A DNA stretch of 64,000 nt, taken from IMG/VR virus record IMGVR_UViG_3300037070_003613, positions 83,493-147,492 of that record. One strand, given 5' to 3'. Every line of letters starts with the position of its first letter. Within the stretch, counting starts at the first letter, position 1. The notes below the pieces were generated by a model that saw only the letters and a list, made by a program, of their open reading frames with translations, ran no database searches and was not told the origin of the DNA. This document shows, piece after piece, positions 20,236 through 48,264 of the stretch. The position numbers and the translations under genes are program-made. Source of the stretch: a virus.

Positions 20236-21285
20236 ATGCGCTGGCCCGGCGAACTCGCGCGAGCCGCCGGATACGACGTGACGGTGTTCGAGCCGGGGCC
20301 GATGAACTCGATGCCGGTGATGGTCGGCCTCGACCATCGAGGAGTCCCGCAGGCGAAGCTGACCGGCGAGATCGACTTCGACGTGGTCGTGTTCCAACGT
20401 CCGCTGGCGTGGCGCAACGTGTTCGCCATCCAACTCCTGCAACGCAACGGGGTGCGCTGCGTGGTCGAACTCGATGACGACCTGGCCTCGGTCCACGCCC
20501 AACATGACGCGTTCGCCTATCTCAACCCGGCCACCCACCCGGAAGCCAACTCGCAGCACCTCGCGCGTTGCTGTATGCACGCCGACGCCGTGGTGGTCAC
20601 CACACCGGCCCTGGCGCGTGCCTACGGGCAGAAACGGGCCGTGGTGGTCGAGAACCACATCCCACGCCGCTACCTCGCCGTAGAGGCCGACAGGGATCCG
20701 GATCTGGTCAGGATCGGTTGGACCGGCAAGATCGGCTCGCACGCCGGTGACCTCAACGTCCTGCAAGGCGCTATGTCGACGGTGCTGCGTTCGGAACCAT
20801 CAGCGCGTCTGTGCGTGCTGGGCGACAACACCGGCGTCGACCGGGTGCTCGGCCTGCCGGATCCGCCTGAGCTTGTCGTCGGTGTCGGCATGGACCGCTA
20901 CCCGTACGAGGTCGCCCGCTTCGACATCGGCATCGCACCATTGGCCGACACGATGTTCAACCGCTCGAAGTCGTGGCTCAAACCGCTCGACTACGCCGCC
21001 ACCGGCGTCCCGTTCGTGTGCTCCGGAACCGACGAGTACAAACGCTTCACCGCGCAGGGTTGCGGCAACATCGCCGAACGCTCCCGACAATGGGTCAGCG
21101 CGCTGCGCCGCCTCATCCAGTCACCATCGCTGCGCGCCGAGCAAGCCGAAGCGGGACGCGAAGTCGCGGCCCGGTGGGTGATGGAAGACCACGTCGACCG
21201 CTACGTCGAGGCGTGGGCCGGAACTTGTGTCGCCGGGACGCGCGATACTGCTGCACCGATGGCAACGACAGAGAGGACACCATGA
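20236..21285 (+). CDS. Glycosyltransferase, GT-B fold
   Basis: 349 residues from the first ATG. The C-terminal half has the GT-B donor domain: IGWTGKIGSHAGDL, a VLGD strand, FDIGIAPLADTMFNRSKSWL and KPLDYAATGVPFVCS with the acidic residue replaced by Asp. The N-terminal Rossmann half includes RWPGELARAAGYDVTVFEP. In related phage enzymes the protein begins about 15 residues earlier with an IHLYPAD strand; that strand is encoded here upstream (from 20191) but with no ATG, GTG or TTG in frame before a stop at 20158. The substrate (DNA base, virion protein or host glycan) is unknown. Confidence 0.8.
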   Translation: MRWPGELARAAGYDVTVFEPGPMNSMPVMVGLDHRGVPQAKLTGEIDFDVVVFQRPLAWRNVFAIQLLQRNGVRCVVELDDDLASVHAQHDAFAYLNPATHPEANSQHLARCCMHADAVVVTTPALARAYGQKRAVVVENHIPRRYLAVEADRDPDLVRIGWTGKIGSHAGDLNVLQGAMSTVLRSEPSARLCVLGDNTGVDRVLGLPDPPELVVGVGMDRYPYEVARFDIGIAPLADTMFNRSKSWLKPLDYAATGVPFVCSGTDEYKRFTAQGCGNIAERSRQWVSALRRLIQSPSLRAEQAEAGREVAARWVMEDHVDRYVEAWAGTCVAGTRDTAAPMATTERTP

Positions 21286-34849: not shown

Positions 34850-36409
34850 ATGCCGACCGCCGGTGTCGTCCTCGCCGAGGACCTTGCAGAGCACGGCTGG
34901 CGGCTGGCCCCGGACCGCCTCGCCGCCCACATCACCCGCTTCGAGCCGGTGACCGAAGGCTTCGGCGGCGAGTTCCAGATGTCCGGCCCCTACCAGCGGC
35001 CACGCCACGTCCGCAAGATCGGCGCCGTGCTCGCTGACACCATCAGCGAAGGCAACGGCCGACTGATCGTCAACCAGCCCCCGCAAACCGGCAAGTCGAT
35101 GCTGATCTCGCGGTGGACACCGACGTGGGCGCACCATCTCACCGAAGGCAAGGTCCGCGTCCTGCTCGGCTCCTACCAGGCCCGCTACGCCGCGTCGTGG
35201 GGCAAGGCGACGAAAGACACCGTCGAGAAGTTCGGCGACGAACTCCTCCTCGAACTCTCACCATTCGCGCACGCCCGCGACGTGTGGGAAACGACCGCCG
35301 GGGGCGGGATGCGCACGAGCGGCATCGAAGGCTCGATGACCGGCCTCCCCGGGGACATCATCATCGTGGACGACCCGTTCCGCTCGTTCAAGGAAGCCCA
35401 CTCACCGACAGTCCGCCAGGATGTGTGGGACTGGTTCTGGGCTGTCCCGATGACCCGCCTCCAACCCGGCTCGACCGTGATCGTGGTTCAAACCCGTTGG
35501 CATGAGGACGACCTCACCGGGCGCCTCATGTCGTCGGAGGGCGCGCACCGCTGGACGCAGCTACGCATCCCCGCCCTGTGCGACGACCCCGCCACCGACT
35601 TCCTCGGCCGCAAGCTCGGCGAGTCGATCTGGCCCGAACGGTTCTCCGAGGAGCACTACAGCGATCTCAAGATCGACTCCGGTGCCTACAAGTGGGCCGG
35701 GATGTACCAGCAACTCCCGGCACCATTGGAAGGGGAGATCTTCAAGCGGGCGAAGTGGGTCAAGGTCGACGCCGCCCCGATCGGCCGCATGACGCACCTC
35801 GTGCGCCGCTGGGACCTCGCGAGCACCCAGGACGACGGCGACTACACCGCCGGTGTGTTGATGGGCCGCACCGACCGCTCCGAGTTCTTCATCCTCGACA
35901 TCCAACACGAACGTCTTTCTTCGCTCGGCGTCGAGGAGTTGATCAAGGACACCGCCCGCCGCGACCACAAGGACTACGGCGGCAAGGTGCTGATCCGCCT
36001 CGAACAGGAACCCGGCGCGACCGGCAAACGAACCGCCGAGGACTACGTCAAGCGTCTCCTGTCCGGATACCCGGCCAAGGCGTTGCGCACCGACAACAAG
36101 AAAGAACTCAAGGCGCAGCCGTTCGCAGCGCAACAGGAAGCCGAGAACGTGATGCTCGTGCGCCACCTCGACAAGATCACCGGCCAGTTCGTCACACCGA
36201 CGTGGTGGGAGGAGTTCATCGAGGAAGCCGCCGTGTTCCCGTCCGGCACCCACGATGACATGGTCGACGCCGCCTCCGAAGCGTTCAACGATCTCCGCGA
36301 GTTGGAGATGAAGCGAGTCAAGGCCAAGACCCGCACCATGGCCGGGGAACGAATCGGCGTCCCCCCGCAGACCGGACAGCCCCGAGGCCAGACCCGCCCA
36401 CCCGGCTGA
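34850..36409 (+). CDS. Terminase large subunit
   Basis: 519 residues from ATG; a GTG one codon earlier is possible. ATPase: NQPPQTGKSMLIS (Walker A, about residues 74-86), IIIVDDPFRS (Walker B, about 170-179), and VVQTRWHEDDLTG (coupling motif). Nuclease: RRWDLASTQDDGDYTA (about 319), then HDDMVDAASEAF (about 468) with the final acidic residues. It cuts and packages DNA into the head. The start has no ribosome site but a TTACAT element lies just upstream, suggesting a leaderless mRNA. Confidence 0.97.
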   Translation: MPTAGVVLAEDLAEHGWRLAPDRLAAHITRFEPVTEGFGGEFQMSGPYQRPRHVRKIGAVLADTISEGNGRLIVNQPPQTGKSMLISRWTPTWAHHLTEGKVRVLLGSYQARYAASWGKATKDTVEKFGDELLLELSPFAHARDVWETTAGGGMRTSGIEGSMTGLPGDIIIVDDPFRSFKEAHSPTVRQDVWDWFWAVPMTRLQPGSTVIVVQTRWHEDDLTGRLMSSEGAHRWTQLRIPALCDDPATDFLGRKLGESIWPERFSEEHYSDLKIDSGAYKWAGMYQQLPAPLEGEIFKRAKWVKVDAAPIGRMTHLVRRWDLASTQDDGDYTAGVLMGRTDRSEFFILDIQHERLSSLGVEELIKDTARRDHKDYGGKVLIRLEQEPGATGKRTAEDYVKRLLSGYPAKALRTDNKKELKAQPFAAQQEAENVMLVRHLDKITGQFVTPTWWEEFIEEAAVFPSGTHDDMVDAASEAFNDLRELEMKRVKAKTRTMAGERIGVPPQTGQPRGQTRPPG

Positions 36410-43279: not shown

Positions 43280-43541
43280 GCGCGTCACGCAACGCAAGCT
43301 CTTGCGCGCCTCGATGGCCATGAACGCGCTGGCGGAGTGCGAGGACGCCGACGAGGTGTTCTGGCGGTACCACGACGCGGTCGTGCCGAAGTGGGACAAG
43401 GACGGCTACCAGCAGTCCACGATCATGCTGCTCGAACGTGACCTGCCATCGACGCGGCTGCTCGTGCTCATGGGCAACCACCTGGCAGTGATGGCCGTCC
43501 CTGACGGCGATGTCCCTGGTTACGAGCCGCCGCCGACCTGA
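43272..43541 (+). CDS. Small hypothetical protein
   Basis: 89 residues from GTG. Basic start KRVTQRKLLRASMAMNALAE, then VFWRYHDAVVPKWDKDGYQQ. Overlaps the previous gene by 8 bases. No family recognised. Confidence 0.65.
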   Translation: MGKRVTQRKLLRASMAMNALAECEDADEVFWRYHDAVVPKWDKDGYQQSTIMLLERDLPSTRLLVLMGNHLAVMAVPDGDVPGYEPPPT

Positions 43542-45138: not shown

Positions 45139-45425
45139 GCCTCGGCGGCGCCGACCCGACCAAGAGCTACCACATCCAGTTCGACTACCGCGGTGTGCTC
45201 GTCGCCATCGAGAACGAAGGGGACCCCGGCCGGACGTTCGGCCCTGACGCCTGGATCCTCGTCAACGCCCACGAATGGGCACGTGCGCAACGATCGGTCG
45301 CGTTCCTGCAAGCCATCCACGAACGAGCCAACGAGATCCCGAACGCGCCCGCCGCCACCAAACCGTCTCGCACGTATCGGGCGCCCGTCAAGCGTCCGGC
45401 CAAGCCGAAGGCGGCGAAGTCATGA
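45135..45425 (+). CDS. Hypothetical protein with basic tail
   Basis: 96 residues from GTG. YHIQFDYRGVLVAIENEGDP and AWILVNAHEWARAQRSVAFL, then a Lys/Pro/Arg-rich tail (RPAKPKAAKS). It immediately precedes the endolysin gene with a 4-base overlap. Confidence 0.65.
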   Translation: MSLGGADPTKSYHIQFDYRGVLVAIENEGDPGRTFGPDAWILVNAHEWARAQRSVAFLQAIHERANEIPNAPAATKPSRTYRAPVKRPAKPKAAKS

Positions 45426-46063
45426 GACGCCTCGTCGTACTGTTCGCGCTGCTGCTCACCCTCCTCCCCGGTCACGCGTTCGCGGACGTGGAACGCGGTG
45501 ACCGGGGATCTGAGGTGACCGAAGTTCAGACCATCCTCAAGGGCTACGGGTATACCGTCGTGGTCGACGGCACGTTCGGCCCCCAAACCGAGAAGGCGGT
45601 GCGCTCATGGCAGAAGTCGAATGGTCTAGTGGTGGATGGAATCGTCGGACCCGCGACCCTGGCCTCTCTCCGCGGTGCCGTGCGCGTCGGCAACGCCCAG
45701 GTCGTTACTGGCCTCAATGGGCTGCCGTTCGCACCCGCTGGGTTGAGTCCCTGTGACGAGATGTCGTTCTACCGGCAGCAAGCCGGGCTGCCCGACGTGT
45801 TCGACGCGCTCGGCTGGCGCGAGTCGAACTGCAACAACCGCGAGGGCGCCAAGTACAACACCTGGTGCTGCTACGGCTACTGGCAGAACTTCATCTCGTC
45901 GCATCTGTCACGCCATAGCGCCTACCGCGTCCCGATCATCGAGAAGTGTCAGGTCACCGGCGTCGAAGACATCAACTCGGACGTGCCGCTCGACAAGCAG
46001 AAGCAGGCGTGCGTCACCTTCATCCTGTACTCGATCTCCGGACTGACCCCCTGGCACACATGA
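45422..46063 (+). CDS. Endolysin with signal peptide and peptidoglycan-binding domain
   Basis: 213 residues. A Sec signal (MRRLVVLFALLLTLLPGHAF, cleavage after about 21) suggests export without a pore. Residues 26-85 are a PG_binding_1 domain (VTEVQTILKGYGYTVVVDGT; FGPQTEKAVRSWQKSNGL). The C-terminal domain has LGWRESNCNNREG and WCCYGYWQNFISSH, the glutamate and Gly-Tyr-Trp-Gln pattern of lysozyme-like transglycosylases; six Cys may form disulfides outside the cell. Confidence 0.85.
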   Translation: MRRLVVLFALLLTLLPGHAFADVERGDRGSEVTEVQTILKGYGYTVVVDGTFGPQTEKAVRSWQKSNGLVVDGIVGPATLASLRGAVRVGNAQVVTGLNGLPFAPAGLSPCDEMSFYRQQAGLPDVFDALGWRESNCNNREGAKYNTWCCYGYWQNFISSHLSRHSAYRVPIIEKCQVTGVEDINSDVPLDKQKQACVTFILYSISGLTPWHT

Positions 46064-46621: not shown

Positions 46622-46934
46622 GATGCCCACCTGCTACATCGTGACGTTGCTGCCGCTCGACAACCCGAACTGCTCGATCTGGTCGTTCAACGTCGAGTGG
46701 TGCGGCAAAGCATGGAACGGCGACCCGAGGTACGCCGACCGGCAGTGGGCGGTGCGCCGCATGGGCGCCTGCCTGTCACGCGGCGGCAAGATGACCTACG
46801 AGCCGCAGCCGTCATCGCGGACCGCCGGGTTCTACAAGAACCATCGCTTCACGCTCGATGAGGCGCTCGCCGCCGCCCGAAAGCACGTCGGCAAGATCGT
46901 CGTCAACGGCATGACCGCCGCCGACGTCGCATGA
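46608..46934 (+). CDS. Hypothetical protein
   Basis: 108 residues. CYIVTLLPLDNPNCSIWSFN, then WCGKAWNGDPRYADRQWAVR and helix TLDEALAAARKHVGKIVVNG. No family recognised. Overlaps the previous gene by 14 bases. Confidence 0.65.
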   Translation: MTINEMPTCYIVTLLPLDNPNCSIWSFNVEWCGKAWNGDPRYADRQWAVRRMGACLSRGGKMTYEPQPSSRTAGFYKNHRFTLDEALAAARKHVGKIVVNGMTAADVA

Positions 46935-47242
46935 GGAAGCACACCATCGAGGAGAAACGCGAGGCGATGCGCCAATCGGCGAACTCGTCGCGGGCGACCG
47001 CCGACGAGATGGCCGCGATGTATGGCGGCTGCGACGACCCGCTGCACCCGTTCATGCGCTTCGACCCGCAACCATTCCGGGACTGGATCGACTTCCACGA
47101 CCGTGTCATTGTCCCGCTCGCCACGAGCGACATCGACACGGTCGTCCAGGAAGCGATGCGGCTGTACCGGCAAGCCAACCCGCACTTCATCGCCGCCTGC
47201 TTCTACCTCGCCGCCCGCTCCAACCCGAGCCTGGTCGACTGA
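46931..47242 (+). CDS. Hypothetical helical protein
   Basis: 103 residues. TIEEKREAMRQSANSSRATA, FRDWIDFHDRVIVPLATSDI, AMRLYRQANPHFIAACFYLA. All helical; no family recognised. Confidence 0.65.
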   Translation: MRKHTIEEKREAMRQSANSSRATADEMAAMYGGCDDPLHPFMRFDPQPFRDWIDFHDRVIVPLATSDIDTVVQEAMRLYRQANPHFIAACFYLAARSNPSLVD

Positions 47243-47266
47243 ACTGTCGCCGCTCTCAACTACAGT
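47239..47266 (+). promoter_or_regulatory. Family B promoter
   Basis: CTGAAC, spacer TGTCGCCGCTCTCAAC (16), TACAGT, almost identical to the promoter at 43538. Serves the surface protein gene, whose ATG is 36 bases further behind GGAGAGG. Confidence 0.7.
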
Positions 47267-47302
47267 CACCACAACCCACGACACCCGGAGAGGTTCAACA
47301 AC

Positions 47303-47998
47303 ATGAAGCGTCTGCTGGCGGCGATCGGAATCACGATCGGTGCAACACTCATCTCAGCGGGGACGGCCTCGGCTCACACCCCGAACGTCCACGACGAATG
47401 CGACGGCCTGTATGTCGTGCTCACCAACTACGAGTCGACCGCCGGTGACGCGTTCAACAACAAGGTCACCATCACAATCGACGGCGTCGCCACCGACTAC
47501 GAGTTCGACGCCTCGTTCTCCCGGACCGACTCGTGGACCCAGTTCGCTCCGCACACCTGGTCAGTCGTGATCGACGCCAACCGCAACAACGGCAACACCA
47601 CGCAGTACGACGTCAGCTACCAGGGGACCCAGACCCCGTGCCAGCCGACCACCACGGCGAGCACGACCACGACCACGACCACCACGACGACGCTGGCGCC
47701 GACGACGACGACCACCGAGCCGACGACCACGACGACATGCCCCGACTGCGTGATCAACACCGTCGTGATCACCGAACCGACCACCACGACGACCGAGACA
47801 CCGACCACGACGATCATCGTGAGCACCGACGAGCCTCCGCTCCCAACGACCACGACGACCACCACCACGCTGGCGCCGGTCACGACCCCCGGCGCGCTGC
47901 CGCCGACCGGTGGAGGTAACTCGAACGTCGCGATCGTCGCCGCCATCGCGGTCATCCTCGGCGTCGGATCGCTCGTCCTCGCACGGCACCGCTCATGA
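47303..47998 (+). CDS. Sortase-type surface protein (LPPTG)
   Basis: 231 residues. Signal peptide MKRLLAAIGITIGATLISAG to about residue 24 (SAGTASA). A beta domain with two Cys (ECDGLYVVLTNYESTAGDAF; WTQFAPHTWSVVIDANRNNG) extends to 112. A long Thr-rich linker (TTTTT blocks broken by CPDC) spans about 113-195. It ends with LPPTG near 199, a hydrophobic helix and a final RHRS, the full cell-wall sorting signal. So the phage probably displays it on infected cells. Confidence 0.85.
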   Translation: MKRLLAAIGITIGATLISAGTASAHTPNVHDECDGLYVVLTNYESTAGDAFNNKVTITIDGVATDYEFDASFSRTDSWTQFAPHTWSVVIDANRNNGNTTQYDVSYQGTQTPCQPTTTASTTTTTTTTTTLAPTTTTTEPTTTTTCPDCVINTVVITEPTTTTTETPTTTIIVSTDEPPLPTTTTTTTTLAPVTTPGALPPTGGGNSNVAIVAAIAVILGVGSLVLARHRS

Positions 47999-48264
47999 GC
48001 AGCTACAAGACCGACATCGTGCTCGGCGACCGCTACGTCGATGAGCAGACCGGCTATGACGGTGTCGCGTCCGCGGTCACCTTCTACCAACACGCCTGCG
48101 AACGCGTCGTGTTGGAGTCGTACGACGCGTCACGTCGCGAGGTCAAAGAGGTCGTGTTCGACGCCCCTCGGCTGACGTCAATCGAGACCCGAGAGACGGC
48201 GACGAGCGCCCGCCCCGGCGGTGATCGGCCCGACACCTCACGACCTGCTGACGGGCGCCGATGA
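47995..48264 (+). CDS. Conserved phage protein
   Basis: 89 residues. DIVLGDRYVDEQTGYDGVAS then FYQHACERVVLESYDASRRE and VFDAPRL. This GDRYxDxxTGxxG...FYQHACERV pattern is a small beta-barrel protein common in phages; function unknown. Confidence 0.75.
   Translation: MSSYKTDIVLGDRYVDEQTGYDGVASAVTFYQHACERVVLESYDASRREVKEVVFDAPRLTSIETRETATSARPGGDRPDTSRPADGRR

Follow-up and report, generated by a model that had tools for sequence, protein, structure and literature searches.

A putative sortase-anchored surface protein of a virus and its uncatalogued family in actinophages

Introduction

Phage proteins displayed by the host cell have been described mostly from prophages. Ltp of the S. thermophilus phage TP-J34 is a superinfection-exclusion lipoprotein for which exclusion was shown (PMC3952083), and an exclusion role was proposed for the Ltp-like gp41 of C. 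acnes phages (PMC11480721). LAXTG is the motif of class E sortases, found in soil and freshwater Actinobacteria (PMC5148588).

Here, we analyzed a gene for a 231-aa protein encoded in a 64,000-nucleotide stretch of viral DNA (the window), which comprises bases 83493–147492 of the 147,492-base IMG/VR record IMGVR_UViG_3300037070_003613; positions are those of the window unless stated otherwise. Like Ltp and gp41, this protein is phage-encoded and, as predicted from its sequence, exported and host-surface-located. However, Ltp is lipid-anchored, has HTH repeats, and belongs to temperate phages, whereas the window protein has an all-beta domain and a sortase signal. An Ltp-type lipoprotein was considered and rejected: the predicted cut (ASA/HTP) has no lipobox Cys, and the model is all-beta, without HTH repeat domains. 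In the literature covered, which was partial, we found no description of the AHTP family reported below as sortase substrates.

Results

Gene Structure and Sorting Signal

The features of the locus are listed in Table 1. A signal peptide, a two-Cys domain, a Thr-rich stalk, LPPTG, a membrane helix, and a basic end had been recognized in the preliminary description; all of them were confirmed with exact coordinates. The frame was called as a gene by codon-usage scoring (score 94). The N-terminal signal peptide was evident from the sequence as a hydrophobic stretch, with MKRLLAAIGITIGATLISAGTASA preceding the cut and H following it. The middle of the stalk contained a CPDC motif (residues 146–149, window 47738–47749). 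No viral relatives of the downstream gene were found in the search.

Table 1. Features of the surface-protein locus (window positions).
Feature	Position	Strand	Remarks
Family B element	47240–47269	+	TGAACTGTCGCCGCTCTCAACTACAGTCAC; TGTCGCC, -10-like TACAGT; begins at the stop codon of gene 46931–47242
Ribosome-binding site (SD)	47287–47293	+	GGAGAGG, read from sequence
Predicted wall-anchored surface protein gene	47303–47998	+	231 aa; ATG 47303, stop 47996–47998
Signal peptide, residues 1–24	47303–47374	+	predicted cut ASA/HTP (A24/H25)
Ig/FN3-like beta domain, residues 25–113	47375–47641	+	Cys33 and Cys113; profile match, AlphaFold2 model
Thr-rich stalk, residues 114–198	47642–47896	+	53% Thr
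Sorting motif LPPTG, residues 199–203	47897–47911	+	sequence
Membrane helix (about 209–226) and basic end ARHRS	47927–47995	+	hydrophobic stretch, sequence
Downstream gene	47995–48264	+	89 aa, phrog_16275; 4-base ATGA overlap with 47303–47998

The LPPTG motif at residue 199 was followed by the hydrophobic helix and the basic end ARHRS. When all six frames of the record (147,492 bases) were scanned, L[PA]x[TS]G, a hydrophobic segment, and a basic end occurred together in this ORF alone, and the same C-terminal architecture was absent from 40 codon-shuffled records. Pfam Gram_pos_anchor (PF00746) and the NCBIfam model TIGR01167 matched at the right place with 16.6 and 14.0 bits, respectively, below their cut-offs of 20 and 15.9; the LAxTG relatives of the protein likewise scored below cut-off with these models. 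A sortase was not found in the virus record. The protein had been regarded as a full sortase substrate, and this view is supported by the presence of all sorting elements and by the conservation of the signal among relatives. With a signal so complete and conserved, the 231-aa protein is very probably displayed on the infected cell via the host’s sortase.

Relatives of the Protein

Searches with the 231-aa protein itself gave no significant sequence relatives, no close relative of the exact protein was found, and no phage match was obtained by tblastn with the mature domain. The full-protein search against phages yielded only two matches, Microbacterium phage Leaf and its near-twin Dewdrop, both at E=1, which resembled noise until the architecture was read: Leaf gp123 has the same plan, consisting of a signal peptide, AHTP, Cys, a beta domain, Cys, LAQTG, a helix, and a basic end. 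The Leaf domain as a query retrieved 87 public phage records (86 Microbacterium and 1 Curtobacterium). The Leaf, L028, and L026 queries were natural sequences; a query with a made-up consensus was excluded from the evidence. The relatives included Leaf gp123, FuzzBuster gp74, Krampus gp58, Rie18 gp58, KaiHaiDragon gp82, Terij gp78, Mercedes gp37, and Elener gp44.

Besides the window protein, 18 phage members were read (14 named phages and 4 IMG/VR contigs). AHTP after the signal peptide, both Cys, and L[AP]xTG were present in the window protein and in 18/18 of the others, the stalks of which were T/P/E-rich. Two contigs end before the helix of the family member, and the SM23 member as deposited is without a helix after LATTG; its gene (L014 1849–3786) also has an over-long N-terminus, which points to a possible frameshift and a likely wrong start.

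A profile was built from ten Microbacterium-phage domains, with the window protein left out and the long loop insert removed from the alignments by hand. When run against the six-frame ORFs of the whole record, it matched the window ORF at E=8.4e-8; its score on the window domain was 46.2 bits, compared with 12.8 bits for the highest-scoring of 2,000 shuffles. The domain is not covered by any family of Pfam, NCBIfam, or PHROGs. As judged from these sequence comparisons, the window protein belongs to a real family, the actinophage AHTP surface proteins, and what is encoded here is a real gene of a real and uncatalogued family. The family was found in the named genera Rogerhendrixvirus, Krampusvirus, Mementomorivirus, Quhwahvirus, Metamorphoovirus, and Neferthenavirus, as well as in the unclassified FuzzBuster, SM23, and Curtobacterium phage Elener. 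Quhwah gp85, Paschalis gp81, and Potty gp57 belong to the family but carry the names glycosyltransferase or DnaE polymerase, which have probably been shifted.

Among the cellular genomes searched, in which Actinomycetota were not covered by profile, the only relative was encoded in one Chloroflexi MAG, in a chromosomal-looking context, and had a T/P-rich stalk and a C-terminal helix. Cellular matches amounted to 1/84,980 species with patterns of the Microbacterium-phage type, which would miss relatives of the window protein’s type, and to 1/201 genomes of the phylum Chloroflexi; in 72,556 plasmids no family relatives were found. The surface-protein gene was not present in 31 viral loci located via the HIT-domain neighbor. 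The contig of a sister virus (L011), the terminase of which is 89% identical, ends before the surface-protein gene.

Domain Fold and Conserved Residues

The AlphaFold2 model of the domain (pLDDT 87.5, pTM 0.80) was all-beta with seven strands. Among the matches listed from the viral structure library, the top query TM-scores belonged to FuzzBuster gp74 (0.73) and a Cressida protein (0.71), both aligned across the insert. Fold neighbors in the PDB (Foldseek) were Ig/FN3-like sandwiches, the first being the beta-1,3-glucan-binding CBM56 (E=5e-3, TM 0.52); these matches were weak, none of them was significant, and many unrelated Ig/FN3 folds score like CBM56 against the model. No significant PDB sequence match to the domain was found.

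Residues A24, H25, P27, C33, Y43, N53, F68, and C113 were invariant in 17 aligned domains; the His after the predicted cut (window 47375–47377) was retained in 17/17, the Chloroflexi one included. The strand order of the model (topology, not model coordinates) would place both Cys next to the stalk and HTP, Tyr43, Asn53, Phe68, and the insert-bearing loop at the far tip, which would suit a tip binding something outside the wall. A copper histidine brace formed by the mature N-terminal His and the His at position 84 was also considered and rejected, since L024 and Elener have Asn in place of the second His and the strand order sets the two His at opposite ends.

Promoter-like Elements

The record contained four exact copies of TGTCGCC-N8-CTACnGT (family B), all on the + strand (window 36412, 43544, 47245, and 53593) and each directly 3′ of the upstream gene’s stop codon; the reversed control contained 0 copies. 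With up to 2 mismatches, 12 sites were found vs. 2.0 ± 1.4 in shuffles, and 0/100 shuffles reached 12. The sister virus L011 keeps the family B core after its terminase gene (L011 11566) with a different spacer. We failed to find the strict pattern in viral contigs, the sister copy differing upstream of the core. The standard sigma-70 scan did not call the family B site, and sigma-70 region 4 was not found in the record. Family B reads like a real promoter class. A promoter dedicated to the surface-protein gene had been proposed; such an element exists and is promoter-like, but it is not reserved for this gene, because the coding region that follows begins at 47995, within the stop codon of the surface-protein gene, and the element heads a run of overlapping genes.

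Two variants of family B were seen. The copies at 36407 and 53588 and that of L011 have TACGGT with an ATG 6–7 bases later, as in leaderless messages, and those at 43539 and 47240 have TACAGT and then a leader with a ribosome-binding site. Family A (TTGACAAACC..TGCGCATAAT) is distinct from family B and commoner, comprising strong sigma-70-like promoters with 10 strict + copies in the record (window 15837, 39731, 40305, 51200, and 62287, and elsewhere); it often precedes an ATGG(A/G)AACCACCAC start. The 18-bp repeat described for the upstream regions of cluster EC genes was not found upstream of the EC family member gene.

Genomic Neighborhood and Lifestyle

Family genes are located among non-structural genes of replication and regulation, encoding helicase, DNA polymerase, sigma factor, and methyltransferase. 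Downstream of the family gene, Quhwahvirus and Metamorphoovirus have a ParB-like gene as well as genes for a glycosyltransferase and a UDP-glucose dehydrogenase, the latter two within about 2 kb.

In the window, an exported peptidoglycan-binding protein (45422–46063; PG_binding_1, E=4e-20) is encoded 1.2 kb upstream of the surface-protein gene; it has an uncharacterized C-terminal domain and a 46% identical relative in L013. A separate gene at record positions 79017–79787 looks like the lysis endolysin. A sulfotransferase gene (181–978, − strand; PF13469, E=8e-12) adjoins tail genes, and a weak glycosyltransferase match was found at 20236–21285.

Matches to tyrosine integrase (PF00589) and serine recombinase/resolvase (PF00239) were absent from the record, which may be incomplete. 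For the clusters EC, EF, and EI, which carry the family, an obligately lytic lifestyle and the lack of integrase and repressor have been described (PMC7302621, PMC9224216), and KaiHaiDragon, one of the carriers, uses a carbohydrate receptor (PMC9224216). Since these carriers are described as lytic and the record is without integrase and recombinase, the protein, if it acts, would act within one lytic cycle on an already infected cell.

Discussion

Putative Function

The gene, the homology of its domain, the family, the conserved sorting signal, and the promoter-like element are shown by the present data; in the explanation that we prefer, export, anchoring, timing, and exclusion are the parts that we infer. 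The 231-aa protein would be made during infection and exported by Sec; the host’s own sortase would then cleave LPPTG and link the protein to peptidoglycan, and the beta-sandwich tip with its N-terminal HTP would be held outward on the Thr-rich stalk. The tip may cover or occupy glycans of the wall, or receptor-binding proteins on arriving particles, and thereby keep further phages from adsorbing until the cell lyses; this would be superinfection exclusion through surface display during a lytic infection. As a whole, a host-sortase-anchored surface protein blocking further adsorption is the best explanation, held tentatively and with a little under even confidence; the blocking of adsorption by itself is our best guess for the function, putative and slightly less secure. 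Receptor masking or superinfection exclusion is plausible, and the covering of the wall glycan or the catching of incoming receptor-binding proteins would fit best. A wider proposal, that obligately lytic actinophages of many genera carry an unrecognized class of proteins hijacking the host sortase to display an Ig-like tip on the wall of the infected cell as a lytic-phase receptor cap or decoy, with the invariant mature N-terminal His in its binding site, is rather doubtful.

Receptor covering, a change in adhesion, and other roles all predict identical sequence features. The protein could alter the behavior of the infected cell (adhesion, clumping, dispersal, or shielding of the wall until the cell lyses) rather than access to receptors; we consider this unlikely, yet the most probable of the alternatives. 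Bacterial adhesins likewise combine a stalk with an Ig-like tip, and the gene of the peptidoglycan-binding protein (45422–46063) places other wall-acting functions close by; however, the latent period of KaiHaiDragon is about 90 min (PMC9224216), and in a lytic infection of this kind it is less apparent what adhesion would bring; no match to known adhesin families was found. The chromosomal-looking relative in the Chloroflexi MAG, together with the lack of a close relative of the exact window protein among the searches, would suit a moron that came from a cell, was retained by chance, and is without a phage role. This is improbable given the presence of the family in at least six named genera of phages, in which the sorting signal is conserved, and the rarity of cellular relatives in the surveyed species, Chloroflexi genomes, and plasmids.

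Expression from a prophage as a host fitness factor, suggested in the preliminary description, has a precedent in SasX, a phage-carried LPXTG protein benefiting the lysogen (PMC5088179). It is not supported here and seems very improbable: a SasX-like carriage by a temperate phage was not seen, as neither PF00589 nor PF00239 matched in the record (the completeness of which is not proven) and the EC, EF, and EI carriers are described as lytic. Ig-like domains are common on virions, which would suit a head or tail decoration. This reading is the least probable of all, as the signal peptide, LPPTG, helix, and basic end are all present and the neighborhood is non-structural in unrelated phages. A structural role had already been thought unlikely, and the non-structural surroundings here and in relatives, with the wall-sorting signal kept in the relatives read, bear this out.

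With a single exception, the complete members read had an intact wall-sorting signal. Such a family, kept across many lytic actinophages, would mean that lytic phages too remodel the Gram-positive surface through the host’s sortase. It also puts a name to a gene that some 87 genome records list as “membrane protein” or “hypothetical protein”.

Comparison with Known Systems

SasX and SesI of phiSPbeta-like staphylococcal prophages (PMC5088179) resemble the window protein as phage-carried LPXTG surface proteins. They are, however, a prophage trait tied to host colonization, whereas carriers of the window protein’s family are described as lytic, and no homology is shown.

The closest likeness is to the Microbacterium and Curtobacterium phage family, the members of which share with the window protein the signal peptide, AHTP, the two-Cys beta domain, a T/P/E-rich stalk, the C-terminal sorting signal, and the non-structural gene position. 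In the members read, the loop behind strand 2 carries a long insert, with NPDYVPA-type repeats in several, whereas the window protein is without an insert. These members are 425–645 aa in length as annotated and carry LAxTG, while the window protein has 231 aa, LPPTG, and a poly-Thr stalk.

The substrates of class E sortases (PMC5148588) have an actinobacterial-type sorting signal, which is also used by the Microbacterium-phage members, the isolated ones having LAxTG. Class E substrates are, however, cellular genes, whereas the window protein is phage-borne with LPPTG; as LPPTG differs from the LAxTG of the isolated Microbacterium members, the host of the virus probably differs as well.
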